The notes beneath the pieces were generated by a model. It ran no database searches. It was not told the DNA's origin and saw only the letters and a list, made by a program, of their open reading frames with translations. The position numbers and the translations under genes were made by a program. This document shows, one piece after another, positions 17,470 to 46,301 of a stretch of 64,000 bases of DNA. Position 1 is the stretch's first letter. Every line of letters starts with the position of its first letter. The stretch spans positions 1-64,000 of the forward strand of contig NZ_JFHL01000014.1 of NCBI RefSeq assembly GCF_003664995.1. The letters are read 5' to 3'. The stretch comes from Mesotoga sp. BH458_6_3_2_1 (GTDB lineage Bacteria > Thermotogota > Thermotogae > Petrotogales > Kosmotogaceae).

Positions 17470-18658
17470 TAGTCAATTAGGATCGACTGATGAACACTGC
17501 GAAGAGAAATTTTAAGAGCCGCTGAACGCTTTGAGCTGTAAGGAGACGTCCTTGGTCCTTCGTTGGCCCGTCCGCCGAAAAGAATAACAACAATAGCTGA
17601 AGTGCTCCTGCAAAAGTCATCCCGTGATGCCTCTGCACGGGATCTTGCATTAGACACCGCTCTACGCTTAGGAACAAAAAAACGCTGAACGTCCTCAAGA
17701 CAACGTTGTCCGTTAACGGTCCACCGTCCTCCGCCGCGAATACCGGTTCTTCGTTCCGACGCTACGGGTCCAGGTTTTTTTGTTCTTGGCAAGAATTCCG
17801 TCATGACTGAAAATGAGGTCCGTTCTTGATCTTAAATCCCCGCTTGAGCGGGGGGGACCGCTTGCGGTGGGGTGTGTGCTCTTTGAACAACGTTTAGAAT
17901 AGATTGGCCTGTTCGCAATTGAACGATATATTCACTACTTCACATTATTAAGCTGTGATCCATATGTATGCTCCTACCAGAGACCAAGAACTAACATCGA
18001 GCAATCACTCACATCGGACTATTTCAGAGCATCAACTTTTCTCGCATACAAAGACCAACACCCTCCGCCACTACGTGGCCCTCCTCCCTCAAGGGAGGAC
18101 TTAAGATCAGGATCATCAAGAGCCAAACACAGCATTCGCACGAGGACCAACATATTAATGGAATTTTGCTCCCTGACTCATGGGTAATGATGAGCTCTTG
18201 AGGGAAATTATAGAGCTCTTCAAGGCTTTTCAATATCGCGGAACCTTACCTACCCTCTATACTTTTCCCTTCTCTCTACTCTCTGAATAATGGTTCGACC
18301 AAGAACGGTTATTCTGAAAACGCCCAATTCCGTCATTCCGACAAAGCTCCTGGTCGGAATCCCGATGCTATTGCTTCACGGCTCTCCTCGACGAACGGAG
18401 AACCTCTCAACGGTCAACCAGTTTCTCTTGCTCTTGCTAACCTCCAACCCCCGACCTCCGACCCCGGCCTTTATTGCAACTCACAACTTGGAACTTGCAA
18501 CTGTTCTTTTCGGCGAACGGAGAACCTCTCAACGGTCAACCAGTTTCTCTTGCTCTTTCCAACCCCCAACCTTGGCTCCCAAAAAAACCGGGTCCTTTTC
18601 AGTGAAATTAACCGGAAACCTAGAAAGGATGAGAGATGTGAAGATGATTTGCTATAAA
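17470..18658. repeat. Gene-free mosaic repeat region
   Basis: No gene is supported. The stretch is assembled from phrases that also occur at 20.3 and 22.5 kb, for example TTCGTTCCGACGCT near 17751 and CGTCATTCCGACAAAGCTCC near 18331, plus GAACTTGCAACTGTTC near 18490. Confidence 0.55.
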
Positions 18659-20654: not shown

Positions 20655-22070
20655 TCAAGGTTTGCCGACATTATCAACAGTTTCAGATTTCCTCACTGGA
20701 ACCAGACAAGAAAGAGAATCCAGCACTTCCCGTGAAGGAAGATATAATCTCATGGTGAGTGAGAAGATTCCATCTGGTGCGGGTAGCCAATTAGATTCCT
20801 TGTCAACGCCAGGTGATTCATGCTGAATATAGATAACAAGCGAACCGTCCTCTTCATATTTAATATCAGTACGATCGCCTATCGAATAGCGATTTATCTC
20901 ATTGGCAACCAGGAACTGATCTTCGCCGTACATCGTGATTGACCAGAATCCCTTTGGTTCAACCGCCGGAACCTCATCACTATTGAAAGAGAGAACGTAA
21001 TTGAATCTCGATCCATCAAAAGCATTCCCGTCTGCATCTACTAGACCGTTTGGGCAATATGCTTCTTCAAGGCTGTTCCCGTACAAGCTGCGATAAGCAG
21101 CCACAGCCCGCAGTTCGTACTCTCCCTGCATTTCTTCTCGATTCCCGAAGACACTCAGATTCCAGCCATTTTTCGAGATTCCCACCATTTCTCCCGGGCT
21201 CTCAATTATCTCCAGAGCTTCCTTGATTCCTTCCTCCACCGCCTCTCTTATGCCGGATGGCATTGCATTGACGCCGAACGGGAAGTTCGGACCGATGCCT
21301 ATCCTGCCGAATTGTTCTATCAGCTCCTTCTCGCTCGGATGTACTTCGAGCTGGCCCAGAAGAAAATTGAAATACGAGATAAACTCCGCGGACTCGGCTT
21401 TTGTCTTGTCATAGGTCGGGAAGATAGTGGGATCTGCGGGCGGCGGAGCCTCTTCTCCAAGATATGAACTGAGGGACTGAATCTCATGCTCATCCTGTAT
21501 TGCTAGAACCTTCTCAAGATCGCCTTCGACTTCCATGTCAACCGCAATCCGAACTAGGCACAGGACAAAATTACCTTCGCTGCGAAAGACATCATCTACT
21601 CCGGCAGGCATGCTGCCCTGCCAGAAAGGGCCGGAAATCACAAAGGTTCGCGCGCCAGTTCCGGTGGTCCTTGTGCCAACATAAGCAAAGTTGTGTGTGT
21701 ACATGTCGATCATCTCGAAGGAGTAATAGCGGTCCTCTACTGCCGGTACACTCACCACTACAGGCTCCGATCTCAGGTCAAGCCAGAGCCTAGAATAGAT
21801 GCTGTCGTTATTTGGCCGGACAACTTCTCTGTAATCAGGACCCCGAAGGCTCCTTTTGTGATAGAACATGCTGAATAGCCCGGGATCGACCGCCTGGATT
21901 ATCATGGTCTTGAAATCCTCCAACATCGGATAAGCAAAGATGTAAGCTTGCTTAGCGATTTCTTTTGCTTCATCGAAATTGGTTGTCAGTTCCGTTGCGT
22001 TTGCAATTGGAGAAGAAAACAGGAAGAGACAGAGAATGGCAAGCGTGATCAGATTCTTGCATTGTAGCAC
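20655..22070 (-). CDS. DUF1254/DUF1214 domain protein
   Basis: The precursor has a signal peptide (CLFLFSSPIANA), then a DUF1254 domain (IFAYPMLEDFKTM, VVRPNNDSIYSRLWLDL, RYYSFEMIDMYTHNFAYVG) and a C-terminal DUF1214 domain (GFWSITMYGEDQFLV, DGSLVIYIQ). The pairing of the two domains in one secreted chain of about 470 residues is the usual family architecture; biochemical role is unknown. The GTG at 22070 lies eight bases after GGGGG. It is monocistronic. Confidence 0.85.
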   Translation of the reverse strand: MLQCKNLITLAILCLFLFSSPIANATELTTNFDEAKEIAKQAYIFAYPMLEDFKTMIIQAVDPGLFSMFYHKRSLRGPDYREVVRPNNDSIYSRLWLDLRSEPVVVSVPAVEDRYYSFEMIDMYTHNFAYVGTRTTGTGARTFVISGPFWQGSMPAGVDDVFRSEGNFVLCLVRIAVDMEVEGDLEKVLAIQDEHEIQSLSSYLGEEAPPPADPTIFPTYDKTKAESAEFISYFNFLLGQLEVHPSEKELIEQFGRIGIGPNFPFGVNAMPSGIREAVEEGIKEALEIIESPGEMVGISKNGWNLSVFGNREEMQGEYELRAVAAYRSLYGNSLEEAYCPNGLVDADGNAFDGSRFNYVLSFNSDEVPAVEPKGFWSITMYGEDQFLVANEINRYSIGDRTDIKYEEDGSLVIYIQHESPGVDKESNWLPAPDGIFSLTMRLYLPSREVLDSLSCLVPVRKSETVDNVGKP

Positions 22071-22827: not shown

Positions 22828-23114
22828 GTCTCAATTCCTCATAGGTACTCTTAGAACAAGCTTTTCTCTGAATCTAGATGTCGCCGAGGTGTTGTTTCAA
22901 TTCCTCATAGGTAGTCTGAAAGCGCACCGCCCTCGGGGGCTTTCTTGTGATGCTAATTCGTTTCAGTTCCTTATAGGTAACCTGGAAGCGGTGCCAAAGC
23001 TTATAAGAGCATTGAGTCTGTTGTTTCAATTCCTCATAGGTAGCCTTGATGCTTTGTAGAAGTATATCATATATGTATCATTGTGTTCAAATGCCTCATA
23101 GATAGGCGTATAGC
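22828..23114. CRISPR. Decayed CRISPR array, repeat family 2
   Basis: Five divergent 30-base repeats lie at 22828, 22894, 22960, 23023 and 23085 with 32-36 base spacers. The common part is GTTTCAATTCCTCATAGGTA with variable ends; CCT/AGG forms a short stem. Mutations in every copy and the absence of cas genes or leader beside it indicate a dead remnant. It is unrelated in sequence to the main repeat. Confidence 0.8.
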
Positions 23115-23152
23115 GGAGGTTTTTGCATTAGTTCTATATAGAATACTTAAAA

Positions 23153-23676
23153 TGGCCTCTTCTTTTCAAATTGATCCATCAGTTTCTGATTTAACTCAAA
23201 TGGAATTCCGTGATCTTCTTCAACCGGCTTTCGTATTCGAGAAGAAGAATTCGAATCTGTATGGAAATGCTGGTAATGGAAAGACTCACCTTGCTCAGGC
23301 AATCGGTTTAGAAGCGTGCAAACAGGACAAGGTGGTTCGTTTCTTCAGAACGGCTGCGCTGGTAAATCGCCTTTCTGAAGCACAGAAGAAGTCAGAACTA
23401 AACGCCTTCATGAAAACTCTAATGAAGGCCGATCTGATTATCTGTGATGAGTGGGGCTATGTGCCTCTTGATCGTGATGGATCGAAGTTGTTGTTTCAAG
23501 TTATCTCAGAATGCTATGAACAAAGGAGCGTGATAATCACAACGAATCTTGAGTTCAGCAAATGGGTCCATATCTTCTACGATGAACAGATGACTTCGGC
23601 AATGATTGACCTTCTTGTTCACCACAGTCACTGTTTTTGTTCAAAGGCCAAAGCTTTAGAATCAGGAATTGGCTAA
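23153..23676 (+). pseudogene. istB: IS21-type istB remnant
   Basis: The frame encodes the AAA+ helper of IS21 transposons: YGNAGNGKTHLAQAIG is Walker A, ADLIICDEWGYVPLD is Walker B, and SVIITTNLEFSKW with LVHHSHCF are conserved C-terminal motifs. The N-terminal domain that normally precedes Walker A (about 90 residues) is replaced by unrelated sequence and no istA transposase is present. It is therefore a broken remnant, sitting between two CRISPR tracts. Confidence 0.8.
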
Positions 23677-23968
23677 TGAAAACTCCTTAACACAATTTCC
23701 TGGTGGAAAGTTGTTTGCAATTCTTGCAAAAACAGGAAATTCACTCTTGCAAATAACATTCTTTGATTGCTTATCTGGAAGAAATAGCAGAATGGAGCAT
23801 CCTAACATTAAGGGTAAGCGATTGATTATGGGTTCTGGATTTTGTTTGGCCAAATAATGTACTGCTTACTTTCCAAAAAACAGTTGTTTGGGATTCCTAG
23901 AAAAACCAAAAATTCGCTCATGAAAAAGACTGCGGATTTTCCTTCTTGAGCTGTATTGAATTGATTGG
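23677..23968. other. Intergenic segment between IS remnant and CRISPR
   Basis: No gene is supported. The part 23810-23869 resembles 13283-13340 and may be the end of the IS21 element. Confidence 0.4.
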
Positions 23969-24129
23969 ATTTAGATACCTTTAAGGATATATGGGGACGC
24001 TAAAAGCCAGCCCCTCTTGTCGTGCATTTTTACAATTTAGATACCTTCAAGGATATATGGGGACCGGCACTCGACCTTCGCACTCATAACCGGGCTCATA
24101 TTTAGATACCTTCAAGGATATATGGGGAC
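23969..24129. CRISPR. Short CRISPR tract, repeat family 3
   Basis: Three 30-base repeats lie at 23969-23998, 24035-24064 and 24100-24129. They start ATTTAGATACCTTCAAGG and end ATATGGGGAC; the first has one substitution (TTTAAGG). Spacers are 36 and 35 bases. After the third repeat another 36-base spacer leads straight into the first family-1 repeat at 24166, so two repeat families share one continuous array. Confidence 0.88.
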
Positions 24130-24165
24130 CGCATATCGAACACCAAACAGCACGAGTCCAAGGCG

Positions 24166-24868
24166 GTTTCCATACCACTATGGTTCTCACGCAACAATAT
24201 GATTTTAGTATTTAATAAGAAAGCGTATAGGCTGTTTCCATACCACTATGGTTCTTACGCAACCCTATTGATACCCTATCAATACCGTATCCATACCCTA
24301 CGTTTCCATACCACTATGGTTCTTACGCAACTCCTGACATGGCGGGACACCGATCTGCCAGAGGAAGGTTTCCATACCACTATGGTTCTTACGCAACCAA
24401 GGTAAAGGACAGAGAATTCGTGCTGCGTGGTATAAGTTTCCATACCACTATGGTTCTTACGCAACCTATAACTCATATTTTCCTTGTACCAGAACCCCCA
24501 GAATGTTTCCATACCACTATGGTTCTTACGCAACAAGTAGTGCGGTATGGCTTTCTATTTATAATCAAATATGTTTCCATACCACTATGGTTCTTACGCA
24601 ACAAGTCAAATGGGGAATTGCTGAGGATTGTCCCAATTTGTTTCCATACCACTATGGTTCTTACGCAACGTATGTGTTGGAGGTAGAACAATGATTTTTC
24701 TCAAGTTTCCATACCACTATGGTTCTTACGCAACGTGGCTGGTTCTAACGATACTGCTAGCTTCGTGTATAGTTTCCATACCACTATGGTTCTTACGCAA
24801 CATGAGAATGAGAAATTATCTGCGGGTGATCTCTTCGGGTTTCCATACCACTATGGTTCTTACGCAAC
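24166..24868 (-). CRISPR. CRISPR array 1, repeat family 1
   Basis: Eleven 30-base repeats start at 24166, 24234, 24302, 24368, 24436, 24505, 24573, 24640, 24705, 24772 and 24839, with spacers of 35-39 bases. On the plus strand the repeat starts GTTTCCATACCACTATGG and ends TTACGCAAC; CCATA/TATGG forms a five-pair hairpin. Transcription is assigned to the minus strand because the repeat then ends in ATGGAAAC and a promoter lies at the right end. The left-most (oldest) copy has a T-to-C change at position 22. Confidence 0.95.
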
Positions 24869-25370
24869 CGCTTTTATTACAAAGATATTATACAGGTTTT
24901 GGGGAGGCAGAATCAACCAAATGGAAAGATCTCGTAAGCAACATCGAGTTTGCATTTCAGCGATTCGCCTAGATTTGATTATGATGGACTCAGTGCTAAG
25001 TGGAGAGAGAAGGCGTCGGTATCTTCTAAGGAAGACCGATCGCAGAAAATACCGGCGAGACACTCTCTAGCAGAAGCTTACAGAAGAAAACTGCTCTCGA
25101 TTTCGCTTTTAAACAAATGACCTATCCTCAGTCGGATTTGTGTAAACTGTGCAATAATAATTCTAAATAAGTTTAAAAGTGTTATTAGCAAAGGAGTTCA
25201 GGAGAAGATGGTACACGATCGATCCGACAAGGATCGGTAACGGAATTATTAACTCGTAAAAAGCTTTATGGAAGGACAACTCAGTGCGATCAATAAAATA
25301 GGATAACTTTACTCCGCAATATGAACTTCAACAGAATCGACTTTATGTAATGCGATCCGACAATAAGGAT
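24869..25370 (-). promoter_or_regulatory. CRISPR leader of array 1
   Basis: About 500 bases right of the array are homologous, by eye roughly 80 percent, to the segment right of array 4 (52089-52590). This fits a conserved leader plus ancestral flank. On the minus strand TTGATT (24916-24911) and TATAAT (24892-24887) are 18 bases apart and would start a transcript about 15 bases before the first repeat. The remaining 25371-25544 shows no gene. Confidence 0.75.
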
Positions 25371-25544
25371 AACGTACAACAACTTAAAAAGCTCTTCAAG
25401 AGTTTTTTTGAAAGAAATCTGCTAATATCAAGTCAAGTGTGTGAAATGGGGTATTTTAAATGATAATATTGCGAAGATATGAACCAAGATCGAGAAGGTG
25501 ACTGCCACTGAATAGCAGATCTTCAATACCCTCAAAAGCAAAAA

Positions 25545-25575
25545 GGCACACCGGCTTTGTTGCCCAAGGTGTGCC
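25545..25575 (-). terminator. Terminator of the CARF/helicase operon
   Basis: GGCACACC and GGTGTGCC pair over eight bases around a 15-base loop. On the minus strand TTTTTGCTTTTG follows. It lies 40 bases past the stop of the CARF-RelE gene. Confidence 0.8.
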
Positions 25576-25614
25576 CAGAAAAAGTCTTCAAGGAAAAGCC
25601 AATGTACGAATTGT

Positions 25615-26664
25615 TCAGATACTTATTCTTGTTTTTGTGTAGTTTAAACCTGCTTCGTGTTGCTCTGTTCTGATGTACCTTTCGTATTCGTCATGATTTC
25701 TAAGTATCGTGGCTATTTTGAAGGGCTCTTCCCCGTGTCTTATATAGAATACTCTCACACCCTTTGCCGGAAACTTGTAGCACTGGGCATCACCAACATA
25801 CTCATGAAGCTGATGCTCTGCTTCTGCCTCGCCCCTAAGCATTTTTCTGATGTAGTCCATGTAGATCGGGTCTCTGTCGATGATCTTCTGTGCGGAGTCA
25901 CTGAAGTATATTTCAGGGTTCGAAACAGTGTACCTCCCCCAGAGAATTTTCCCGAAGTTCGAGAGATAGACGAGCCCGTCTTCTTCAAGAAGTATTTGCG
26001 GGACTATTTTGGTGAAAAGCTCATATCCAAATCCCTTTATTGCTTCCTCGGCAGGAACGCAATCGTTATCAGCTCTTTCGAAGAAGGCAGAATGCTCCTC
26101 GATTATTGCAAAGTCGAAGTTTATCGGGAATGGAGGAAGCTCCAGCAAGTGAGGTGAATTCTCGTAAAGGTAGATCACCCGTGAATCGAAAACTGCCGCA
26201 ACGATCGTGGTGTACGGAATCAGTGATCTGTATCCTGAGGTGGCATTGAAGTAGTTGTCGTATGACCATTGTTCGCCGTTATCAAATAGGCCAATAATTT
26301 GATCTACGTAATCTGCGATCCCCTTTTTAAAGGCCGTACTCGAATCGTCGGTCAAACCTTCGACAACTCTTGTGACGACGTTGATTCCCCCGGATCTGTA
26401 TAACTCTGTGAGAGCTTCCATACATGCTTTAGATACATCAGTATTGGTAGCTATGAAGATTAGCAAATCGTCTTTGCTTACACCGAAGGTTTCGAGCCCG
26501 TTGATTTCTGGAGAAATCTTCTTAAGCTCGTCCTCGCTCATCTTTCTGAGATAGCTTACGATTGCTGAACTGCTGAGTTCACTGTCTGGGGAAGCATACA
26601 TTTTCTTAAGGTTGAACCATATCGTTCCACCGACGTTTGTTATTACTCTTCTTTGTCTGCCCAT
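25615..26664 (-). CDS. CARF-RelE effector, Cami1-like
   Basis: The N-terminal 185 residues form a CARF domain: RRVITNVGGTIWFN opens it and YFNATSGYRS (about 138-146) holds the Thr/Gly ligand loop of the APE2256-type subfamily. The C-terminal part (about 250-332) has the RelE toxin pattern: helices, then CYKFPAKGVRVFYIR and PFKIATILRNHDEYERYI. CARF-RelE proteins (Cami1) are known type III CRISPR effectors that cleave ribosome-bound mRNA after binding cyclic oligoadenylate. The gene overlaps the preceding CARF-HD gene by 22 bases and ends the operon. Catalytic residues were not individually assigned. Confidence 0.82.
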   Translation of the reverse strand: MGRQRRVITNVGGTIWFNLKKMYASPDSELSSSAIVSYLRKMSEDELKKISPEINGLETFGVSKDDLLIFIATNTDVSKACMEALTELYRSGGINVVTRVVEGLTDDSSTAFKKGIADYVDQIIGLFDNGEQWSYDNYFNATSGYRSLIPYTTIVAAVFDSRVIYLYENSPHLLELPPFPINFDFAIIEEHSAFFERADNDCVPAEEAIKGFGYELFTKIVPQILLEEDGLVYLSNFGKILWGRYTVSNPEIYFSDSAQKIIDRDPIYMDYIRKMLRGEAEAEHQLHEYVGDAQCYKFPAKGVRVFYIRHGEEPFKIATILRNHDEYERYIRTEQHEAGLNYTKTRISI

Positions 26665-29600
26665 GATTTGCTCTCCGGAAGCTCGACGACGTCGCCTACG
26701 ACATAAGGCTCTTTCTTCTGAGCGTCAATTCCTCTTCTGTCGACCGCGAATACTCTAGTGACATCAAGCATCTTAGATTCCAGAATCTCTGCAAATTCAC
26801 CCGTTACGTACTGCAGAAAGGATGTTCCACCGGCGAGATTTACGGTTATTCTGGATGTGATGTCAACCGGGAAGTCCGAACTCATTCTTCTCATGATGTC
26901 TTGAACATCTTCAAATCCTGTGAATGGATCATTGAAGAGATAAGGGGTGATCTTCTCAATATCGAATCCGGCCTTCATGCATATCTCTGGAATGTTATCT
27001 TTACCTGCTTGCGAAGTTATGACTATTACTCTGTCAGGATTCAGCCTTTTAATGAGCGTGTACAGTACTCCCGGGGATGTGCCGAGAGGAGTAAGCAGTA
27101 TTTTCTCTGTCAATGGTGTGACCTCCATCTTTATGGTTTTTATTGCGAATTGATTCAGGCCGGCACGGACGAACTCCTTGACTATGTCCTTCTTAACACC
27201 GTCTATGATTTTGATCAATGAATTCATGTCATTTTTGCTTTCTCTCTCTATATTGATACTCAGGCAGAGAGTGCCATTGGTGTTTCCAAATAGGCTCTTT
27301 TCCATGAAGAACCTTGGGTAAACGTAGTTCACCATATTGTGTTTTTCGAAGTGTGGAAACTGGACAGCCTTGAAAGAGATCTTTGACAGGAGCTTCAGCC
27401 AGTTTGGCATCGTGATCGTACCCAAGCATTCATCGATTCTCTTCCGAATCATTGGGTAGAGTGTGCTCTTTTCTAGCTCACTTGCTTTGTTTCTGATTGA
27501 GATTGCGAGATCTCTGTTCATTGACTTGTATTCAGAGGCTTCGAAGGACGCTCGCAGCTTACTCAACTCACCCACAAGATCGGATACCTCATTCCTAATA
27601 GATATTGAAATCTCCGTGTTGCTTTCGAGTTCCACAGCAAGCGCTTCGATCTCGGTTATTGTTCTCAAGACGCGTGTCTTGAAATAGTTTGGTTCTACGG
27701 TTCTGTCTGACTGAACATCCGTGCCGTCAATAAACTTTAGCCATCTCGCAGCCATTATCGTTAATTTCTGCCAGTTTTCGTCGGCGAAACTAGCCGCAAC
27801 CACCTTATCGAGAGGTTCTGGTTCCATCGAAAGCATCCTCACAATATCCTTCAGCTTTCCGGGTTTTCCGGTAATGGGCATGTACTCTCTGTGGTATCTT
27901 GTCACCAGTTTCACGGCAGTCTTTATGTTGTCCCAAGTGTTTTTATTACATGAGTCTGTGTCAAATGAGTTTTGCTTATCATCGAATAGCCTAAATCTAT
28001 CATCATCTTCCAGCATCTGATATGAGAGCTCATGATGAAGATCTCTTACTACGCATGGAAGACTATCTAGAGGCAATATGCGACCGTCTCCAAGTTCGTA
28101 GGTTAGTTTTGTGTGACCCAGATCATGAACATTCATCGCAATTGCCAACACGAAATAGAACTCGTTTCGCAGTTGCTTTGGGATACCGTTGAGAAAGTTT
28201 TCTTCGCCGATAGTATTTATGAGATTGACAGTAAATTCCATAAGCCTTTTACTATGGCGCTGAGAATGTTCAACGGTCTCGGGTATCTGATCGCCTATCC
28301 ATTGCAGGGACCAGACTTCTCGAATCATTTTCCGGAGGTAGTTCTTGTAGTTTTCCGTACAACTGTAATCATTATCTAGAAGCTTCAAGAAGTCTTCGCC
28401 GTACCCGAAGGGAAGGCCTCTAGCTTTTCTATATTTGCTTTCAATGACGTTTAGCGGTAGAGAACTCGTAAGATAGTCTTCATTGCTGCTTGCGGTATAC
28501 AGATTTCTGAAAGTCTCCGGGAGCGAGCAATACTCTGAGTATTTCAGATGATTTCTTTCGAAACTATGTGTTGTGTTCCTAATAAGAATAGAATTGAATG
28601 CAGCCAGCGCTTCGTCAATTGCTCCAAAATCCCAGCTTGCTGGAACGGGTGGGAATTTCGCAAGACTGACTTCTCCTTCGAAGATGTAGAAGAAGGGTAG
28701 ATTGTTAAAAATACAGTATAGTGAAGCCATAATACCCGGATACTTTTGACCACCCGTAACGTCAATCAGAATTTCCTTGTTTGGGTATTCTTCTCGGATT
28801 CTGTCAAGGATTTTCCAGATCTCAGTGAAGGCTCTTGAAAGACTCTCTATGTTATCACCTGTGTAATACATTGGCCTTTTGTGGACATCAATACCATACT
28901 TGCTGAAAGCATTTTCTGTAAGCGCCTTAAGAAAGCCATAGATTGCCGGTTCGTCTTCTCTCGAAAAACCTTCTGGCCTATCCGGAAATACAATGTACTC
29001 TACATCTGATATTGAATATCCTGTATTCAATATGTGCTGGATACTATCGGTCTCTGCGGCTAGGAAACGAATGTCGTTGTAAGAGCACGGATTCTTCAGT
29101 ACTTCGTTCAGATCACAACTGAGTTCTTCATCGTCGTTGTACTTTTTCTTGTACCTAAGTACGCTGTACTCTTTTTCTTTCCGGAATCCTTCGCGTTCGT
29201 ATTCGTTTCTAAGGTTGCCAAGCTTGTTGAAGAAAGAATTACCCTGCAACGCCACAACGACTTGCTCTGGTTTGAGCCTGTTTTCGACATACTGAATGAT
29301 TTTGAATGCGCTGCTCTCTTCGTGATGTTTGGCAAGTGTCTTGTTCTCATATTTCTTTGATTCTTCCTCTGTCAGACCAGTAAGATCTTTCAGAAATTTC
29401 CATGAGGAGGCCTCTTCAGAGATGATGCTCCTGTCTTCTTTCCCATCGTTCATTTCGATCTCAACTAGATACTGGCAATCGCACTTCCATTTCTCGAGAA
29501 ATTCATCCAGAATCACTTCTTTGATCCCTTTGTTCTTAGGTTCGAGATAATGCCTTATCTTTACCACGAAGGGAAGTGTTTCCAGGTTCTTGAGATCTAC

Positions 29601-29870
29601 TTCTGTTGGGTCGAGCGAATACTCTCTTTCGATTCTGTCTTTCGAATCCGAGGAACGCTTCTTATAAGTCTGAGTCCACACATGGCGCATTCCGGTCTTT
29701 TCCGGAACAATCTCTAGACGGACCCGTTCCTCTTCATTTTCTTCACGCATGATATACCACTGAATAATGCCTGTTTTTCTTTCTGCCTCTTCCTTAAAAG
29801 CAGCAATTGCCTTTTCGTGTGAAGTTCTGTCTAGCAGAAACTTCTCTTCTTTTTCTAGTTTTTCTGACAT
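26643..29870 (-). CDS. CYTH-CARF-HD-CARF fusion protein
   Basis: Four domains are visible in about 1075 residues. Residues 6-145 resemble a CYTH triphosphate-tunnel domain: EKEEKFLL matches its ExExK signature, followed by EERVRLEIV, IEREYSL, VVKIRHYL and YLVEIEMN. Residues about 205-420 form a CARF domain with ILIDVTGGQKYPG. Residues about 530-720 form an HD phosphohydrolase with HSQRHSKRL, NVHDLGHTKL and RYHREYMP. Residues about 922-1050 form a second CARF-like domain with LLTPLGTSPGVLYTL and VNLAGGTSFLQ. The ATG at 29870 lies seven bases after GGAGG. It presumably senses cyclic oligoadenylate made by Cas10 and acts on a nucleotide or nucleic acid; substrate unknown. Confidence 0.78.
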   Translation of the reverse strand: MSEKLEKEEKFLLDRTSHEKAIAAFKEEAERKTGIIQWYIMREENEEERVRLEIVPEKTGMRHVWTQTYKKRSSDSKDRIEREYSLDPTEVDLKNLETLPFVVKIRHYLEPKNKGIKEVILDEFLEKWKCDCQYLVEIEMNDGKEDRSIISEEASSWKFLKDLTGLTEEESKKYENKTLAKHHEESSAFKIIQYVENRLKPEQVVVALQGNSFFNKLGNLRNEYEREGFRKEKEYSVLRYKKKYNDDEELSCDLNEVLKNPCSYNDIRFLAAETDSIQHILNTGYSISDVEYIVFPDRPEGFSREDEPAIYGFLKALTENAFSKYGIDVHKRPMYYTGDNIESLSRAFTEIWKILDRIREEYPNKEILIDVTGGQKYPGIMASLYCIFNNLPFFYIFEGEVSLAKFPPVPASWDFGAIDEALAAFNSILIRNTTHSFERNHLKYSEYCSLPETFRNLYTASSNEDYLTSSLPLNVIESKYRKARGLPFGYGEDFLKLLDNDYSCTENYKNYLRKMIREVWSLQWIGDQIPETVEHSQRHSKRLMEFTVNLINTIGEENFLNGIPKQLRNEFYFVLAIAMNVHDLGHTKLTYELGDGRILPLDSLPCVVRDLHHELSYQMLEDDDRFRLFDDKQNSFDTDSCNKNTWDNIKTAVKLVTRYHREYMPITGKPGKLKDIVRMLSMEPEPLDKVVAASFADENWQKLTIMAARWLKFIDGTDVQSDRTVEPNYFKTRVLRTITEIEALAVELESNTEISISIRNEVSDLVGELSKLRASFEASEYKSMNRDLAISIRNKASELEKSTLYPMIRKRIDECLGTITMPNWLKLLSKISFKAVQFPHFEKHNMVNYVYPRFFMEKSLFGNTNGTLCLSINIERESKNDMNSLIKIIDGVKKDIVKEFVRAGLNQFAIKTIKMEVTPLTEKILLTPLGTSPGVLYTLIKRLNPDRVIVITSQAGKDNIPEICMKAGFDIEKITPYLFNDPFTGFEDVQDIMRRMSSDFPVDITSRITVNLAGGTSFLQYVTGEFAEILESKMLDVTRVFAVDRRGIDAQKKEPYVVGDVVELPESKSWADKEE

Positions 29871-29895
29871 CAAGCGGCCTCCATTTTCTGAAAGA

Positions 29896-29920
29896 AACGG
29901 GGCGGGATTTCCGCCCCGTT
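29896..29920 (-). terminator. Intercistronic hairpin after the RecQ-like gene
   Basis: AACGGGGCGG and CCGCCCCGTT pair over ten bases around a five-base loop, immediately after the helicase stop; TCTTTC follows on the minus strand. It could terminate or attenuate transcription before the CARF genes. Confidence 0.65.
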
Positions 29921-32900
29921 AATAAATTCTACCAAGAAAGTAATTCTCAATGAAATCCCATCTCTGGCTGTCATCGAGCTTCATGGTGAAGAAATCGCGC
30001 ATAATCTGCTCTTCCCTATCGATTCTTCTTCGGATATCTCTCGTTATTTCACAGTAGTAGTTCTTGAAGTTATTCAGAATGTAATTTCTGTCTGTGCATT
30101 TCAAGTGAACAGCACAGCTTTCGCCACCGCTGAACTTGACGTTTGCCATTCCCAAGATGTCCAAAATGTTTAGTAGACTGGTAATTACTTCTGTGTGTTC
30201 ATCCTGACCGTTTAGATAGAGTCTGCAAATTCCTTCTTCACAGGGCTCGAGTAACTCTTCGAGCTTGTTCAACCATCTGTCCTTTGTTATGTTGGGGATG
30301 TTCTGGACCGTATAGATGTAATTCCCAATTTCTCCCCGACATTTGAACAGGCCTGTCTGAAATCTATCACCATTATATGAAACGAAGTTGTTCTTCACGA
30401 TATTTCTAATTTTTATATCCAGATCCTGCACACCTGTGAGAAGAGATGCCGACTTCACCTTCGAAATGATCCCGTCGAAGAGGCTCTTCTCATCCATCTG
30501 TTTTCTTGCAGAATCTAGGGCGAACTCGCCCAGAATCTCAATGAATCTTGTGAGTTGCTGTTTTATACTGTCCATATCCTTGATGACTGACATCTCGACG
30601 GCAATTTTCGGGATTACCGGTTTTCCTAGAACCTTTGACGGAAATCTCATGAACTGCCAGACGAGCTTTCTAAGATTTCTGTCCCTGTATAGCCTAGCCC
30701 AGAGGGCAGAGATGTCTATCTTGTAAACGGCTCCAACGGATCTGATCTCCTCGTTATGGAAAAAGCCTTTTCTCGAATAGCCGGCAGATTCTCTGGATAT
30801 TTCCGGGAAGGATTTCATGAGCTCTTCGGCGTCATCGTTGCTGGCAGTGAAGTAAAGATACTGATAGGTTTCTCCCTTTCTAATCAGAATCTGTTTCCCA
30901 GTCCTGCTTTCAAGGTCTTTCTGAATGAGGAAGATGGCGACTCTAGCCTTATCCCTTATTGTTTCCTCATTGTACTTGTCTTTACCGGTAATTAGGAGAT
31001 ATCTGATGTCGTCCAGGGAGAGAACAATCTCTCCATTCTTGCTCTGCCGTATCAGTGTACCGATGTGCTCCATTATGTGTCTCATCTTCCACTGTTCCGG
31101 AACGGATATTTTGGAGAGCTTCAGGCTATCTGAAAGGTCTTTCGTATGGAAGTGAGTTGAAGCGACTGAAGGCCTTCCATCTCTTCCTGCTCTGCCGATT
31201 TCCTGGACGTAGTCTGCCATGATAGAGGGAACACTGTGATGAAAGACTTCATCTATATCTGGAATATCTACTCCCATCCCAAAAGCTTTGGTCGCGATTA
31301 CAGTTCTATAGATACCCTTCCTGAAGAGCTCCTGGGTTAGGCGACGTTCCTGGGTCTCGGTCGGCCCCGTATATCTGCCGACTTTGTTGCGGCACTCTTC
31401 GAGGTCGGCTATGGCATTGTATATGTTGTGAGCCTGACCAACAAAGGGACAGTAGATAATGCTCTTCTTTCCCGACTCGACAAGGTCGATTGCATAATCA
31501 ATACTGTCTGATAACTTTTGTGCCGTTCTGCAGTCTTTAGAATGTTGATTCAATTCGAAACTGTCGATCTTAAACTTGATATTGTCCCTTCGAACATTTG
31601 TCATGACAGTCTTGGGATTTTTCAGACAGAGAAGCTTGCTTATTTCAGATATTGTATTCAGTTCGCCTCCGGAGATAGCCGTGGCGGTAGTGGCCATCAC
31701 CGGAAAGCTGAGCCTAGATCTAAGGAATCGAAGATCTTCTCCCAGATATCCATAGTCCACTCTGAAGGTCTTTCCCCACGTTGTAACTAGATGAGCCTCA
31801 TCTACTACAAGAAGACCGATAGACCTTTCGCCGATAATTGAAGATAGAGAGTTTCCCACGAAGGTTTCAGGAGAAACATACAGAATGGTGATCTCTCCCT
31901 TCCTTACTCTTTGAGTGAGTTCGCTTTTCTCGTCAAAGCTCAAGTCTGAATTCAAAAAGGCAGCCCCATTTTCAAAGTATCTTTCGATAAGCCCATTGAC
32001 CTGATCTTCCATTAGGGCCTTCAGAGGAGTAATGACTACCGTGAGTCTATCCAGATCTCTCTTCAGAATCTTCGCAGTAAGCTGATAGATAAGGGACTTT
32101 CCAGACCCGGTCGAAGCAACAAAGAATAGATCGGAGGGGTCTTGCCTGTAGTTCTGATCGATCAGATATCTGATCAACTCTTCCTGACTGACAAGATAAT
32201 TGCCCGTTTTTCCATAGACTTCATACTCTTTGAATGAATCGAATCCGAAATGCTCCTTCAATTCATTCTTGAGATCTATGCTTCTCGCCTCTTCACCGGG
32301 ACAGTATCCTGTGAAGTCTATTACTTCAACTTCTTTGCCAATAGCTCTAAGCATAGAGACCTCTCTGTCCACTTCACTCAGTACACTTTCGGCTGGAGAA
32401 CTCACAATAATCACTTCGTGCTTAGAGCTACCGCTTACAAGCGATATACCGGCTTCGGTAAGGAATGATTCCAGATTCTTATCGAGGCGGATGCCAGTGC
32501 ATTTTCTACCCGCTGTGTGATTGAGAAGCTGATCGAGAGTGTTCACTTCAATAGGAGTAATTCTTTCGAACAGAGAAATAGTCTCGGTCTCTGGGAAATC
32601 TTTGACAGAAATGAACTGTCCTTCGATATCGAAGAGAGGCATCAGTTCATCTGAGATATTCTCCCCTGTGTCGATTGAAGCTCTCTCTCCACAATCAACG
32701 GCGACCACTTTTCCGAAGTAGCTTTCAAACAGTGGAGCGTACTTCTTTATTATGACGTATAGCCATTCAGTGATTACGACCGGAGAGTCGCTGAAATGAT
32801 CTGCAACTGAAAGAAGCCCATTGAGAGATTTGATTGTCTGATACCATTCGAAATCGAGATTCATGTCATTCGAGATGGTTTTGAATTCACCTTCAGAAAT

Positions 32901-33014
32901 GCACTTAAGCGTTTCTTTCTTTGCATTTTTCAGGACGACGGTCTTCGCCCCGAGAGTTGTAGCGTGTTTTACTCTTGAACTCAACAGTGTTTTCAATGGT
33001 TCGAGTTCATTCAA
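29919..33014 (-). CDS. RecQ-like superfamily 2 helicase
   Basis: The 1031-residue protein has a central helicase: FVASTGSGKSLIYQL (motif I, near residue 305), TVVITPLKALMEDQ, LVVDEAHLVTTWG (DEAH), VMATTATAI, and in the second lobe IYCPFVGQ, VIATKAFGMGVDIPDI and QEIGRAGRDGRPS (motif VI). This order and wording are RecQ-like. About 280 residues before the helicase and 430 after it have no family I recognise. TTG at 33014 is the start, seven bases after GGAGG. It begins a leftward transcription unit with the two CARF effectors, which suggests a role in the type III response or an independent anti-phage function. Confidence 0.85.
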   Translation of the reverse strand: MNELEPLKTLLSSRVKHATTLGAKTVVLKNAKKETLKCISEGEFKTISNDMNLDFEWYQTIKSLNGLLSVADHFSDSPVVITEWLYVIIKKYAPLFESYFGKVVAVDCGERASIDTGENISDELMPLFDIEGQFISVKDFPETETISLFERITPIEVNTLDQLLNHTAGRKCTGIRLDKNLESFLTEAGISLVSGSSKHEVIIVSSPAESVLSEVDREVSMLRAIGKEVEVIDFTGYCPGEEARSIDLKNELKEHFGFDSFKEYEVYGKTGNYLVSQEELIRYLIDQNYRQDPSDLFFVASTGSGKSLIYQLTAKILKRDLDRLTVVITPLKALMEDQVNGLIERYFENGAAFLNSDLSFDEKSELTQRVRKGEITILYVSPETFVGNSLSSIIGERSIGLLVVDEAHLVTTWGKTFRVDYGYLGEDLRFLRSRLSFPVMATTATAISGGELNTISEISKLLCLKNPKTVMTNVRRDNIKFKIDSFELNQHSKDCRTAQKLSDSIDYAIDLVESGKKSIIYCPFVGQAHNIYNAIADLEECRNKVGRYTGPTETQERRLTQELFRKGIYRTVIATKAFGMGVDIPDIDEVFHHSVPSIMADYVQEIGRAGRDGRPSVASTHFHTKDLSDSLKLSKISVPEQWKMRHIMEHIGTLIRQSKNGEIVLSLDDIRYLLITGKDKYNEETIRDKARVAIFLIQKDLESRTGKQILIRKGETYQYLYFTASNDDAEELMKSFPEISRESAGYSRKGFFHNEEIRSVGAVYKIDISALWARLYRDRNLRKLVWQFMRFPSKVLGKPVIPKIAVEMSVIKDMDSIKQQLTRFIEILGEFALDSARKQMDEKSLFDGIISKVKSASLLTGVQDLDIKIRNIVKNNFVSYNGDRFQTGLFKCRGEIGNYIYTVQNIPNITKDRWLNKLEELLEPCEEGICRLYLNGQDEHTEVITSLLNILDILGMANVKFSGGESCAVHLKCTDRNYILNNFKNYYCEITRDIRRRIDREEQIMRDFFTMKLDDSQRWDFIENYFLGRIY

Positions 33015-33387
33015 ATAATCACCTCCAGTTTTTTCATACGGAGTTAAGTGAGCAGTTTTTTGAAGCGGGAAATAGAATCGAATAAAACAAAGCGTAGAGG
33101 AAGCGTTCCAAAAGAATTTACGTTGTTTCTGACGATATAGAAGTACGAATTAGCAGTGGATTACCCCAAAGTGTATAATCACACTTTTTTGGGAGCTGGA
33201 TCGAAGTTGTTATTTGGAGAGTGCAAGAGACTAGAAAACTGACAAGTCTTGTGAAGGGAGCTCCGAGTATAGATAACTGAAAGGCACTGAATCAATAAAG
33301 ACGGAATTGCGACCTTCTTCAGACCTTGTTTACCTTCTGATTCATTCAATATTACGGACAATTCCGGTTAGCTTCCAAATGTGGTTT
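33015..33387. other. Upstream region of the RecQ-like gene
   Basis: No gene is seen in 373 bases. The recurrent promoter-like motif lies at 33174-33189, leaving a leader of about 150 bases before the TTG start, so post-transcriptional control is possible. Confidence 0.5.
33174..33189 (-). promoter_or_regulatory. Recurrent promoter-like motif (copy 1)
   Basis: On the minus strand this reads AAAAAGTGTGATTATA. The TGA plus TTATAC part looks like an extended -10. Distance to the RecQ-like start is about 160 bases. Confidence 0.6.
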
Positions 33388-35538
33388 TCATACAATTTCA
33401 AGAGCAAGGCCTATTAATTTTTCTTTTTCCGAAACTTTTCTAATCAAATCCTCATCATTTGCCTTTTGAGCTATCTCAGCAGCATAAAAAAACTCTTCAA
33501 TTTCAAAGAGGTAGGTGCTTAGGTCAGAATACATTTCATATTTACACATAAGCGTGATAGCCTTTTCGAGGTCACTTTCTTTACTTGATTCTTTATATTG
33601 TTTTAGGAGATTTTTCGCTCTCTCAGTTGCAGTGTTCAGTAACTCTCCGTAGTCAATACTTGTTCTTCCATATTCTATTAGTTCATTTATGGCGTCAACG
33701 AGATCCATCTCTACACTTGCCTTTCCGTGACCATCCAGTCTTGTGTCAGTCAAGAAGAGTGAGAAGATCTCTTCATCTGCTGGAGCCTCCTCTGTAAAGA
33801 TAGTGAGGAGCATGTATTTTGCCCTGGTAATCGACGTGTAAAGTTTCTCGTGGAGAGTTTTGACTTCTATATTACCCATTTCATGAGGGTTGACCAATAT
33901 TACGTTGCTGAATTCGAGGCCTTTTATCTCTGAGATCAAGAACGGATAGATTTGTCTGTCGTCACAGTCATCAAAACGGTCTTGAAATTCAAGTTTCATT
34001 TTCTGGTTCGGGAGGAGAACGGCTATCATCACCTTGTTTGAGTTATCAATACTATTCTTCAGGTTAAATACAAGACTATCTAGATTGGTCGATCTTGACA
34101 CAATAGGCTTCTGATAAGGCAATACCGGTTCAGTCAGTGGGTCAGAATCCTTCGTAGCTATCCTGAACACCTTAGCCAGAAGGAAGATATCGCGGGTGTT
34201 CCTGTAAACCTCTTTGAGCGAGTAATCTTTTGCATTGTCGAAGTATCGAGTGATGAATTCCTTTCGCGATAAACGGCCGAGAACCTGCTGGTTGTAGTCA
34301 CAAGCAATGATATAACTGGCTGGATTACAGCTGGCCAGATACTTCAGCTCGATTTCTGTTAAGTCCTGAGCTTCATCGACTAGAAGAAGATATTTGCTGA
34401 GGTCCCTGGGAGTCTGCAGAGCTCCCGCCATAACTTCCCAGGGCAGCAACAGATCTTTGTGATCATGTGTCTTTAAATCTTCTGCCTTCTTCGATAGTTT
34501 TCGCAGAGTATTGTCAACAACATCTGCTAATCCTTCAAGTGGAGCATCTGTAAAGCCACACTTCTTTAGGAGATAAATGGTCTTATTTCTATCGTCATTA
34601 TCAGTAGTACCTTCTATATTCACAGTCTTCACAGAATAAAGCAACCTTGAGAAGGCCTCTATGAACTCATGTGAGCCTCTTTCTGGTAGATGACTTTTCA
34701 GAATAGGCTCGAACTCCCTGCTAATAGGTATTTCCTTGATAAGTGAACCCAAGTTATGAAACGATTTTGCAAGGCCAGGAACAAGATCCTGAATGGTTGT
34801 GAATTCAGTCGGTATTTTGCTTTCACATTTTGTTCTGTTGTAGTGACTCTCCCATTGCTTCAAAAGGTTTTTGCTGCATGAAACATACATAGCATTGCTT
34901 ATGCTGTCTTCACTGCTAGTAATAGTAGGGTCTTCCCTAAACATGGCTCTAAAAAGCAAAAGGGATTTTCCGGTGCCTGCGGGTCCTTCGATGATGTAGT
35001 TTGAACCCTTACTGAAGGAGTCCCGAATTATTGCCTTTTGAGTGGGCGACAACTCATATTTGATTTCGCGGAGGTTCTCCAGTAGTTCATCTATCGATTG
35101 AGAAGGATCGAATCTAAACATACGGATAGGAATCGAAGAATGACTTGCGAAGATTTTGAAATTATCTCCGTTTTCAAGCTTGAGTTCAACCAGCTTCTCA
35201 CGAAGCTTTTCCTCAAAGAAACGTAAATGACGCCCTTTCCTGAAAGCATTATTTGCCTTCTTGTATGATTTGTCGTGTTCATCCACAAAATAAAGAATTG
35301 ATGTGGATCTTTCCTTGTCAACAATGAACTGCGCTCTATTGCCACTTTGATGTCTGTATGCATAGTAAGTGTACATGTCTTCACTATAAAGAAACTCAAC
35401 TTTACCGTCCTTAACTGGGCCTTCGCCTGTGTCTATGTGCCTCCAGAAGTCTTCCCACAAATTCTTCAAGTTGATTCCTAGCTGGTTTGCTCTTTCAACA
35501 GCGGTTTCAACACTGAAGAATCTTGCCGTTTTCACCAT
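33388..35538 (-). CDS. Superfamily 1 (UvrD-like) helicase
   Basis: This protein of about 716 residues has Walker A YIIEGPAGTGKSLLLFRA after an N-terminal region of about 180 residues with no clear match. YLLLVDEAQDLTEIEL follows as motif II, DYNQQV as motif III, LKEVYRNTRDI as motif IV, EIKGLEFSNVIL as motif V and LYTSITRAKYML as motif VI. The set is that of UvrD/Rep-type helicases. The ATG at 35538 overlaps the stop of the coiled-coil gene (ATGGTGA), so the two are translationally coupled. A dedicated partnership with that membrane-tethered protein is likely; its target is unknown. Confidence 0.85.
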   Translation of the reverse strand: MVKTARFFSVETAVERANQLGINLKNLWEDFWRHIDTGEGPVKDGKVEFLYSEDMYTYYAYRHQSGNRAQFIVDKERSTSILYFVDEHDKSYKKANNAFRKGRHLRFFEEKLREKLVELKLENGDNFKIFASHSSIPIRMFRFDPSQSIDELLENLREIKYELSPTQKAIIRDSFSKGSNYIIEGPAGTGKSLLLFRAMFREDPTITSSEDSISNAMYVSCSKNLLKQWESHYNRTKCESKIPTEFTTIQDLVPGLAKSFHNLGSLIKEIPISREFEPILKSHLPERGSHEFIEAFSRLLYSVKTVNIEGTTDNDDRNKTIYLLKKCGFTDAPLEGLADVVDNTLRKLSKKAEDLKTHDHKDLLLPWEVMAGALQTPRDLSKYLLLVDEAQDLTEIELKYLASCNPASYIIACDYNQQVLGRLSRKEFITRYFDNAKDYSLKEVYRNTRDIFLLAKVFRIATKDSDPLTEPVLPYQKPIVSRSTNLDSLVFNLKNSIDNSNKVMIAVLLPNQKMKLEFQDRFDDCDDRQIYPFLISEIKGLEFSNVILVNPHEMGNIEVKTLHEKLYTSITRAKYMLLTIFTEEAPADEEIFSLFLTDTRLDGHGKASVEMDLVDAINELIEYGRTSIDYGELLNTATERAKNLLKQYKESSKESDLEKAITLMCKYEMYSDLSTYLFEIEEFFYAAEIAQKANDEDLIRKVSEKEKLIGLALEIV

Positions 35539-36308
35539 AGAAATGCAACCGCCAGATTCGCTGCCAATGAAACAAGGCAGATAAGCGCCCATAACTTGCT
35601 TCTATGAGAATGTTTATCGCTCTTCGAAAGCTGAGCTTGAATCGTTTCTTCACTCGCCCTCTTTTTACACTCCAGTTCTAAAGTTTCTTTAGAGAGCTTC
35701 TCAAAGAATTCTTTAACTTTATTGTTAATCGCTTCTTCTGCCTGGTTGAACTCCTGCTCAAAGTTCTGCTGAGCGATTTTTAAATTCTTATTTTCTGAAT
35801 CCAGAGCCAATAGCAAGTTGTTCATGCTGGCAAGTCTATCTCCAATACTCTTATCAAAATCTCTGACCTGATTAAGGTGGTTTTCAAATGACTTAAGATC
35901 GAATCCTCTGGTTTTCGAGATTATTGAAATTAGTTTCTCAAGAGATTCTGTATCCGATGAATTGAAGAAGAGTCGAAGCTCTTGCCGTACTTTATTGAAA
36001 GAATCTCTGCAACTAATTACATCAGACTCGAACTCCTCAAGGAGTTTCTTCTGATTATCAACGTTTGAAAGCTCTTTTCTGAGTGAAACCATGGCCTCTT
36101 GTAAATCTTTGACATTAGCTTCAGCCTTGAGAGCCTCCGAATCAATCTCACTAAGCTCTGTACGGATATCACCAACTCTTTTGATGATGTCCTTCGATTC
36201 TTTTTTTGTCTCACTGAGGAGATCCTTCATTTTCAAATACTCTTCCCTAAATCCCTCATAAAAGGCTTTTGCTTCCTTCAAGTTCTGCATTAGTTTTGTT
36301 TCGGCCAC
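35532..36308 (-). CDS. Tail-anchored coiled-coil protein
   Basis: About 258 residues are dominated by heptad-rich coiled coil (for example EALKAEANVKDLQEAMVSL and NLKIAQQNFEQEFNQAEEAI). The last 20 or so residues form a hydrophobic segment after basic residues (HRSKLWALICLVSLAANLAV), so the protein is probably inserted in the membrane by its C-terminus with the coil in the cytoplasm. The GTG at 36308 sits eight bases after GGAGG. No family is recognised. The overlap with the downstream helicase gene suggests a membrane scaffold for it. Confidence 0.75.
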   Translation of the reverse strand: MAETKLMQNLKEAKAFYEGFREEYLKMKDLLSETKKESKDIIKRVGDIRTELSEIDSEALKAEANVKDLQEAMVSLRKELSNVDNQKKLLEEFESDVISCRDSFNKVRQELRLFFNSSDTESLEKLISIISKTRGFDLKSFENHLNQVRDFDKSIGDRLASMNNLLLALDSENKNLKIAQQNFEQEFNQAEEAINNKVKEFFEKLSKETLELECKKRASEETIQAQLSKSDKHSHRSKLWALICLVSLAANLAVAFLW

Positions 36309-36343
36309 TAACTTCACCTCCTTCAGTTATCGATACTAAGAAA

Positions 36344-36363
36344 ACAGCGGCATTCGCCGCTGT
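36344..36363 (-). terminator. Intercistronic hairpin at the end of the type III genes
   Basis: ACAGCGGC/GCCGCTGT pair over eight bases with a four-base loop, and TTTTCTT follows on the minus strand. It lies at the stop of the 165-residue protein gene and may end or attenuate the cas10 transcript before the coiled-coil gene. Confidence 0.65.
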
Positions 36364-36860
36364 CAATTACCTAGCTTCTTTCTCAACTTCTCGAAGGGAT
36401 TGTAAGTAGCTGGACCACTAACTGGCCTATTAGGGGCGTTCCCTCTTCTATTACCACTTTGCTTAGTTGCTTTACCATTATTAGATCCATCTGAATGAGT
36501 GAAGGCCTTAGCCGATTCCAGATACTTCAATTCCCTCGACAGGTATCCAAGAAAGCTAGGGATATCTTCACTCGAAAGCTTACCGGTTTTAGACAACTCT
36601 TTGATCTTGTCAATAATTGTGCCAAGATTATCTCCTGAACCATCAGTTCTCATTTTTCTATATTGATTCAGGTCCAGTTTCTTTGCTTCATCAAATCCGA
36701 ATTTCTTTGAGATCTCCAAAAGTATTTTGGCTGACCTGGATAGATCTGCTTTGTTAGCTCTAAAAAGCATATTTGCAGTTTCGGCTGCAAGTTCAATTAA
36801 CGATGTACTATCCCTCTTCAAGCTGCAACACCTTCTTTGAGTCATCAATGATTTTGTCAA
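36363..36860 (-). CDS. Unknown type III-associated helical protein
   Basis: I do not recognise this protein. The longest frame has 165 residues but overlaps the preceding gene by 53 bases; a methionine at 36770 (residue 31) is an alternative start. The core is helical (KADLSRSAKILLEISKKFGF, DIPSFLGYLSRELKYLESAK) and the C-terminal 45 residues are Asn/Gly/Lys/Arg-rich and probably disordered. Size, charge and position at the end of the RAMP genes would fit an extra small subunit or crRNA-complex accessory, but that is inference. Confidence 0.6.
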   Translation of the reverse strand: MTKSLMTQRRCCSLKRDSTSLIELAAETANMLFRANKADLSRSAKILLEISKKFGFDEAKKLDLNQYRKMRTDGSGDNLGTIIDKIKELSKTGKLSSEDIPSFLGYLSRELKYLESAKAFTHSDGSNNGKATKQSGNRRGNAPNRPVSGPATYNPFEKLRKKLGN

Positions 36861-37692
36861 GATTTGCGACTATATCACTATCTCCTGTGATACTTTGAAG
36901 ATAGACATCGGCACATTCATCAACGAGTTTTGTGAGCTCTTCTCCAGAAATTGGAATTTCGCTCACAGCACTTATCTTCAAGAAGTTTTCTGGTCTTAAG
37001 GTCACACTTCCAAAGCCTATGTTCTTGCCTCTTCCTAGCTTTACTGAAAAGCGCTTTCGTGATACTCCCATTGCAACTAACAAGAGACCGAATTCCTTCC
37101 TGGTAAGTCCTTTCACAGTTACTTCGAATTGAAAACTGCTGCCGGGTTCTATCACTTCGTAGTTTGAGGTTTTCTGACCGGTTTCTGATAGAGTATGGGA
37201 GTAAATTTTGCCCGTATTTGGCAGAGTTGCTTTTCCCTTCCATTGAGAAGGACCGGAAACAACAGTTGTTTTCAAGCTACGTTCGTTAACAAGAACGTCG
37301 TCGAACTGGACTCTACCGAGTTTTCCAAGTGTTCCAAACATTGAACAGACAATACAAAGTCTATCGCTGCATGAAGCTGTTCCGCTTCCAGCACATGAAT
37401 TAGAAAGGAACTCCGCGTACGTACGTATAGCCCCTTTGAGCGACGCCCCAGGAATCAGTACTCTTGTCCCTTCTCTCGACAATACATTAGTGATTTTTCC
37501 CTCTTTCATCAAGAGATCTCCCTGAGTGAAGCAAGTATATGATTTTGTGACCGCTCCAATTCTCAAGATACCATTAAGTCGATCAGAGCAAAATGAGTCA
37601 ATGTGAGAAAACTCTTGGGAACTGATGTGAGCACTAAGCTTGGGAATCTTCAGTCTTAAATATCCTTTTGGAGAGTCATTATAATCTGTCAT
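36808..37692 (-). CDS. Type III Cas7-like RAMP protein
   Basis: This 294-residue protein has the RAMP hallmarks: VLIPGASLKGAIRTYAEFL after the first strand, cysteines in CIVCSMFGTLGKLG (zinc knuckle with FG) and the glycine-rich loop KLGRGKNIGFGSV near the C-terminus. No Asp is evident at the position that cleaves target RNA in Csm3, so it may be structural. It starts with ATG after GAGGAGG and overlaps the neighbouring 130-residue gene by 14 bases. It belongs to the backbone of the csx10-containing complex. Confidence 0.82.
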   Translation of the reverse strand: MTDYNDSPKGYLRLKIPKLSAHISSQEFSHIDSFCSDRLNGILRIGAVTKSYTCFTQGDLLMKEGKITNVLSREGTRVLIPGASLKGAIRTYAEFLSNSCAGSGTASCSDRLCIVCSMFGTLGKLGRVQFDDVLVNERSLKTTVVSGPSQWKGKATLPNTGKIYSHTLSETGQKTSNYEVIEPGSSFQFEVTVKGLTRKEFGLLLVAMGVSRKRFSVKLGRGKNIGFGSVTLRPENFLKISAVSEIPISGEELTKLVDECADVYLQSITGDSDIVANLDKIIDDSKKVLQLEEG

Positions 37693-38071
37693 CAGGTTCC
37701 TCCTCTACTCTGATATACCTCATACCACCAGGCATCGAAAGGTCTCTGACAAACTTTATTACGGGATTAGAAAATGGTATCTTTTTCCTGATACCGGCAT
37801 TAAGAAAAACAATCCCTTGATTGCTGTTCTTTTCATCGCTGATGTAGATATCTCCGTAGAACCACACAAAATCTAGATGCTCATTGAAAGCTCTGAAGTA
37901 GAAATTGTAGTCGAAACTATCATGCAGTTTATTGAACAGCTCTACACTTTCATCGGGGGTCATTTTGTCAAGATGAAGAGCCCTGTAGTCGTTAAAGATC
38001 ACATAGAACAAGTCTTCTGTGCTTTTTAATCTTTCGAGATACTCAAGTCTATCATTCAACTGTCTCACCAC
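37679..38071 (-). CDS. Small protein of the type III operon
   Basis: This 130-residue protein has no motif I can name with confidence. It is mixed alpha/beta with an aromatic-rich centre (FDYNFYFRAFNEHLDFVWFY). GTG start codons overlap the stop of the upstream RAMP gene. In III-D loci a small Csx19-type protein often sits in this kind of position, so it may be a divergent equivalent; resemblance is too weak to assert. Confidence 0.6.
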   Translation of the reverse strand: MVRQLNDRLEYLERLKSTEDLFYVIFNDYRALHLDKMTPDESVELFNKLHDSFDYNFYFRAFNEHLDFVWFYGDIYISDEKNSNQGIVFLNAGIRKKIPFSNPVIKFVRDLSMPGGMRYIRVEEEPDDRL

Positions 38072-39719: not shown

Positions 39720-40039
39720 CTTCTCCCTCCCCTTTCAGCGGCAACAAACTTCGCAAACCTTGCCATGTAACCGAAGTAATATGAAATGGCTTCGAGAGTT
39801 TCTTCTTTAGCAAACTCCTTTATCTTTTCTACCTCTTTCATGAGTCCTTTTCTGAAAGGAAAAGTGTCCCTTCCAATCTGGTACTTCAGGTAGTTTTCAA
39901 ATTCCTCGACGCAAGATGACTGCTTTGCGATTTCGCAAAACTTACGAAGCTGCGTATCAGTATCAGTTCTGGACCCACCGCTCTGATAATATTCCTCTGC
40001 CATAGTAACCAGCTTTCTCTTTTGATCAGCACTGATCAT
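39716..40039 (-). CDS. Type III small subunit, Cas11 (Csm2-like)
   Basis: The 107-residue all-helical protein has the Csm2-style sequence TQLRKFCEIAKQSS, YLKYQIGRD and a closing helix EAISYYFGYMARFAKFV. Csm2 subunits form the inner filament of type III complexes. GGAGG precedes the ATG, and the gene lies between csx10 and a cas7 gene, the expected place. Confidence 0.75.
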   Translation of the reverse strand: MISADQKRKLVTMAEEYYQSGGSRTDTDTQLRKFCEIAKQSSCVEEFENYLKYQIGRDTFPFRKGLMKEVEKIKEFAKEETLEAISYYFGYMARFAKFVAAERGGRR

Positions 40040-40052
40040 ATCTATTCCTCCT

Positions 40053-43180: not shown

Positions 43181-43203
43181 ATCCCTCCAATCTAAGAGAG
43201 TCT

Positions 43204-46296: not shown

Positions 46297-46301
46297 CAAT
46301 T

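Follow-up and report, generated by a model that had tools for sequence, protein, structure and literature searches.

A CRISPR array in Mesotoga that combines two repeat families and probably arose by the joining of two arrays

We found that a CRISPR array in Mesotoga sp. BH458_6_3_2_1 consists of two parts with different repeats: three repeats of one family (family 3, positions 23969-24129) run, through a single 36-base spacer, into eleven repeats of another (family 1, positions 24166-24868). The window in which the array lies, a stretch of 64,000 nucleotides at the start of contig NZ_JFHL01000014.1, belongs to a draft genome of 3.23 Mb in 36 contigs. We consider it probable that the composite array is a splice, in which the orphaned tail of a lost type I-B system was joined to a resident family-1 array. 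The composite is real, and its origin is probably an accident of recombination. Its parts are as follows.

23969 to 24129, minus strand: relic of family 3, with spacers of 36 and 35 nt between its three 30-nt repeats, the only copies in this genome
24130 to 24165, minus strand: junction spacer, 36 nt, between the last family-3 repeat and the first family-1 repeat
24166 to 24868, minus strand: family-1 array, eleven 30-nt repeats and ten spacers; the leftmost repeat is the TTCTCACG variant
24869 to 25400, minus strand: family-1 leader, which aligns with other family-1 leaders

An initial annotation of this DNA had given the same order of repeats, with a spacer of normal length between the families, and it was right to the base. 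The composite has direct repeats, unique spacers, regular lengths and a leader at one end that is conserved among arrays of its family (six family-1 leaders align), and chance is ruled out as the source of 30-mers repeated at this spacing. Within the family-3 part, the repeat at 23969-23998 has one mismatch, and those at 24035-24064 and 24100-24129 are exact. The leftmost copy of the family-1 part has one variant base, the other 10 copies are identical, and the spacers are 35-39 nt long.

An assembly artefact, in which reads from two places were fused, has to be considered in a draft genome of 36 contigs and in a region so rich in repeats. However, family 3 occurs nowhere else in the assembly, and families 1 and 3 share only 16 of 30 repeat bases, which leaves little to confuse an assembler. 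Moreover, the DNA to the right of the join is syntenic with that of a related genome, G008, and the left-flank piece 17698-18442 also lies to the left of the G008 array. We regard such an artefact as highly improbable. The initial annotation had named, as the sign of such an error, an intact array of family 3 at another place that carries the same last spacer. A search for one showed that the genome has no further family-3 repeat and that, among 38 genomes of the order, the junction spacer is confined to the composite.

The active leader had been placed on the right, and the sequence from 24869 onward indeed aligns with the flanks of five further arrays of family 1, which belong to this genome and to the relatives G008 and G012. 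A promoter-like site, TTGATT-18-TATAAT at 24916-24887, faces left, toward the array, with 18 bases between its end and the first repeat. It was the sole such site found in the family-1 leader, and neither hexamer varies among the six leaders. Promoter-like sites in this region showed no excess (three found, with a mean of 4.9 expected in shuffles). No terminator-like site was found on the transcribed strand within the composite array. On these sequence features, we infer that the family-1 leader probably transcribes the whole array leftward, with the family-3 spacers co-transcribed.

A second relic, of a third repeat family (family 2), and a truncated istB gene lie to the left of the composite.

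22828 to 23110, minus strand (crRNA strand): decayed family-2 array, with repeats at 22828, 22894, 22960 and 23023 and a very decayed one near 23081
23083 to 23676, plus strand: truncated istB of the IS21 type, which separates the relics of families 2 and 3 and covers only positions 72-226 of 238 of Pfam IstB_IS21

The four repeats at 22828-23052 have 6, 1, 4 and 3 mismatches, respectively, to the family-2 repeat GTTTCAATTCCTCATAGGTAGTCTGGAAGC; together with the fifth copy near 23081, they bear out the decayed third family that had been noticed nearby. The istB gene lacks its start, and copies of the region 23228-23763 that are 92-94% identical are present in G008 and G012. The family-2 relic and the truncated istB show that this spot has undergone deletions and the earlier loss of another CRISPR array.

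The repeat families had been described as unrelated. However, the repeats of families 1, 2 and 3 are all 30 nt long and agree, ungapped, at 16-17 of 30 bases, which is beyond chance: this likeness was reached by 2-26 of 20,000 shuffles, and 14 of 20,000 30-mers from the window reached 16 matches against family 1. Read by eye, the layout of the crRNA strand is also shared, with 12 bases, a short stem (CCN/NGG) around a loop of 3 bases, 1 base and an 8-base handle. When single repeats were folded as RNA, family 1 formed a hairpin in the stem region, family 3 only an overlapping one and family 2 a different one; thus, a common stem is not supported by folding.

Leader and Cas1 lineage are specific to each family. 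Family 3 (up to 3 mismatches) was found in 3 of the 38 genomes, namely this one, G007 and G009. G008 and G012 have family-1 arrays. Both families thus have arrays in relatives, where the initial annotation had proposed to look for them. A cas locus matching family 3, also proposed there, is present in G007, where a distinct leader and then cas2, cas1, cas4 and cas3 come after three family-3 repeats (the contig ends at this array, before its far flank). The Cas1 of this locus is 38% identical to the sole Cas1 of the present genome. G009, a relative in the same genus, has two slightly decayed family-3 copies. The exact family-3 form of the window was found neither in the genome contigs collection nor in the viral contigs collection, and a looser form gave one record in the former, LVBU01000311.1 (the G009 contig C370). 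Family-2 repeats are intact beside a third Cas1 lineage in G008, G011 and G012, and this Cas1 is 41-43% identical to both the family-1 and the family-3 Cas1. A BLAST comparison among the leaders of the three families gave no match at E 0.1. The G007 family-3 leader region had no match in the present genome, in a search run without a positive control here; neither a Cas1 nor a leader belonging to the family-3 system was thus found in it.

Comparison with G008 places the composite in its context. Positions 24233-32159 of the window are 94% identical to G008 over 7,973 aligned columns, and G008 has at the syntenic place a long family-1 array with 52 repeat matches, some of them broken by inserted elements. 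No family-2 or family-3 repeat (up to 8 mismatches) was found in the syntenic 20 kb of G008. The left-flank piece 20681-21986 is inverted there. By this sequence comparison, the family-1 part and the right flank are an inherited unit, and the family-3 tail is the difference from G008; either the tail was joined in this lineage, or the join is older and G008 has lost the tail. G008 array A and the composite have no whole spacer in common, and we therefore suppose, from this comparison of two single genomes, turnover since their divergence. The composite spacer at 24735 has a 22-nt stretch in common with a spacer of the other G008 array. When we scanned a small sample of eight sequences (the window, two G008 stretches, contig C25 of the same genome, G012, G010, G006 and G009) for family-2 or family-3 repeats beside family 1 (up to 8 mismatches), only the window had either family in that position. 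No relative with families 3 and 1 separate yet adjacent was found, and the state before the joining is unseen.

To the right of the leader, the window contains the resident systems.

25615 to 44334, minus strand: type III locus with CARF proteins, including Cas10 (41606-43180), Csx7/Csx10-like RAMPs and a Csm2-like protein (39716-40039); in part syntenic with G008
44432 to 44695, minus strand: Cas2
46297 to 52088, minus strand: main family-1 array, with blocks of repeat variants and inserted REP-type elements
52776 to 53801, minus strand: Cas1 (type I-B), cognate of family 1, the only Cas1 found in the genome with a Cas1 query
53771 to 59285, minus strand: cas4, cas3, cas5, cas7 and cas8b of the resident type I-B system

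The sole Cas6 match in the genome lies slightly outside the window (68057-68674 of the same contig, C14). The family-1 type I-B set (cas1b, cas4, cas3, cas5, cas7, cas8b, cas2 and cas6) is present in full. Its cas2 and cas1 are separated by the whole main array and leader, and the flanks match G008 too. The type III locus encodes a 1,076-residue CARF protein with an HD-like region (26643-29873) and a 1,031-residue RecQ/DpdF-like helicase (29919-33014). At 60347-61631, a macro-domain-like protein and its neighbour resemble a DarT/DarG pair when the translation alone is read by eye.

In the main family-1 array, the variants TTACG, TCACG and TTACA alternate in blocks; from the old end, and with broken copies omitted, the order is T, C, T, C, T, C, T, A, T, A, T. 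Back mutation would have to be exact and recur many times to give such alternation; exchange between arrays is the easier route, and the pattern supports it. Two identical adjacent spacers at 49750-49855 represent an exact duplication of a unit. Family-1 repeats contain, at the same position, an inserted REP-type element that mostly measures about 270 bp and is flanked by a 16-base duplication, CATACCACTATGGTTC. It occurs in the main array at 46437-46734, 48282-48503 and 48578-48860, and also in arrays of G008 and G012 (L054, L055 and L057). The eight scanned sequences have 14 left boundaries of the element, among which copies may be duplicates and not separate insertions. The right boundary deviates at 48503 and at 46734; at the latter, the pattern match is simply where an ordinary repeat begins. 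Parts of the element are widespread outside arrays.

We consider the joining of two arrays to be the best explanation of the composite because, within the genus, the families differ from one another in leader and in Cas1, and because G008 has a plain family-1 array at this place. We infer that the family-3 part is probably the leader-distal tail of an array from another type I-B system. In the simplest account, that array stood at this place and lost its leader and cas genes, neither of which was found in this genome. Recombination or deletion would have attached the surviving tail to the family-1 array that neighbours the type III locus, with the breakpoint inside a spacer or at its edge. A family-2 array had previously been lost from this spot, and the family-1 leader would still drive the fused array leftward.

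The initial annotation had proposed either a switch of leader or recombination between arrays. The latter agrees with the separate leaders and Cas1 proteins and with the plain array of G008, whereas a simple leader switch is less likely. New CRISPR units copy the leader-proximal repeat; a leader alone would therefore have kept copying the family-3 repeat. A leader switch alone was accordingly set aside: given the change of repeat type, the leader must have brought one or more family-1 repeats with it. The annotation had also taken the family-3 part as the older end, which is correct by position but not as dating, since after a fusion the order does not date family-3 spacers relative to family-1 spacers. 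The two inner family-3 repeats are mutually exact, in contrast to the decayed family-2 relic; this intactness fits either a recent join or some use.

The junction itself is neat, with whole repeats on both sides of a 36-nt spacer, and this neatness leaves room for a repeat-guided process. In simulations, a random join gave whole repeats with a spacer of 35-39 nt in about 4% of cases, and in 13% of cases given whole repeats. Cas1-Cas2 might have made the join by integrating the ends of a prespacer at the family-1 leader-repeat boundary and at a nearby family-3 repeat, with deletion of the intervening DNA, so that an exact repeat-spacer-repeat was left. Such a route, which we hold to be unlikely, would account for the whole repeats and the canonical spacer that random joins so seldom gave. 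A foreign repeat can act as the partner, to judge from the Sulfolobus Cas1-Cas2, which is reported to show specific integration when its own leader is combined with a foreign repeat in a chimera (PMC5815122). However, ordinary recombination at a repeat edge gives equal neatness, the composite is a single case, and no protospacer was found that would make the junction spacer one capture. Both repeat-edge recombination and Cas1-Cas2 with the family-3 repeat as second site would give a neat join, and the data do not decide between them.

The 36 bases could also be the old flank of the family-1 array, and not a spacer, with family 3 ending there by chance. Terminal repeats often carry variant bases, and the leftmost family-1 repeat has such a base. 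However, the same variant is common inside other family-1 arrays and so does not mark an end, and a length of 36 nt fits the spacers of both families (35-36 nt in family 3 and 33-41 nt in family 1). We find this interpretation quite improbable.

Searches for spacer targets were made with the 900-base array as the query, within which the ten family-1 spacers were searched together. There was no plasmid match, and no PAM or spacer origin could be set. Against phages, two weak matches (E 0.08 and 0.3) fell at query positions 294-332, inside the spacer at 24264-24301. Cores of 20-21 nt, taken from the junction spacer and the two family-3 spacers, had no exact match in IMG/VR.

The locus thus preserves, in one direction within about 2 kb, what is left of three CRISPR lineages that differ in repeat, leader and Cas1; two are orphaned and one is live, and the array documents how immune systems have turned over. 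The locus offers a clear test case for the passing of memory from one CRISPR system to its successor, which would depend on whether the single Cas6 and the family-1 effector process and use family-3 crRNAs. In its strongest form, the proposal would be that Cas1-Cas2 fused the arrays with one prespacer across two repeat families, and that the fused array now supplies one Cas6 and one effector with spacers from the lost system. We give this little credence; if it were true, immune memory would outlive the machinery that wrote it.

The composite is likely ordinary in its origin and unusual as an object. In titles and the beginnings of abstracts, in a literature coverage that leaves out most subscription journals, no natural array of two repeat families was described. 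CRISPR arrays have trailer ends and orphan remnants, in which leader-distal repeats no longer grow. The family-3 part resembles these in its non-growing leader-distal repeats but differs in that the remnant belongs to another repeat family than the live part. Recombination between CRISPR arrays is described as rare in the SpacerPlacer report (PMC11472070, citing Kupczok et al.); as presented there, it is like our case in the exchange of array segments, whereas the partners here are unlike in repeat, leader and Cas1. Both family 1 here and family 3 in G007 conform to type I-B CRISPR-Cas, with 30-nt repeats, spacers of about 35-39 nt, a leader adjoining the array and a Cas1 of the TIGR03641 (cas1_HMARI) family. 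The composite differs from type I-B arrays in having two such repeat families under one leader.
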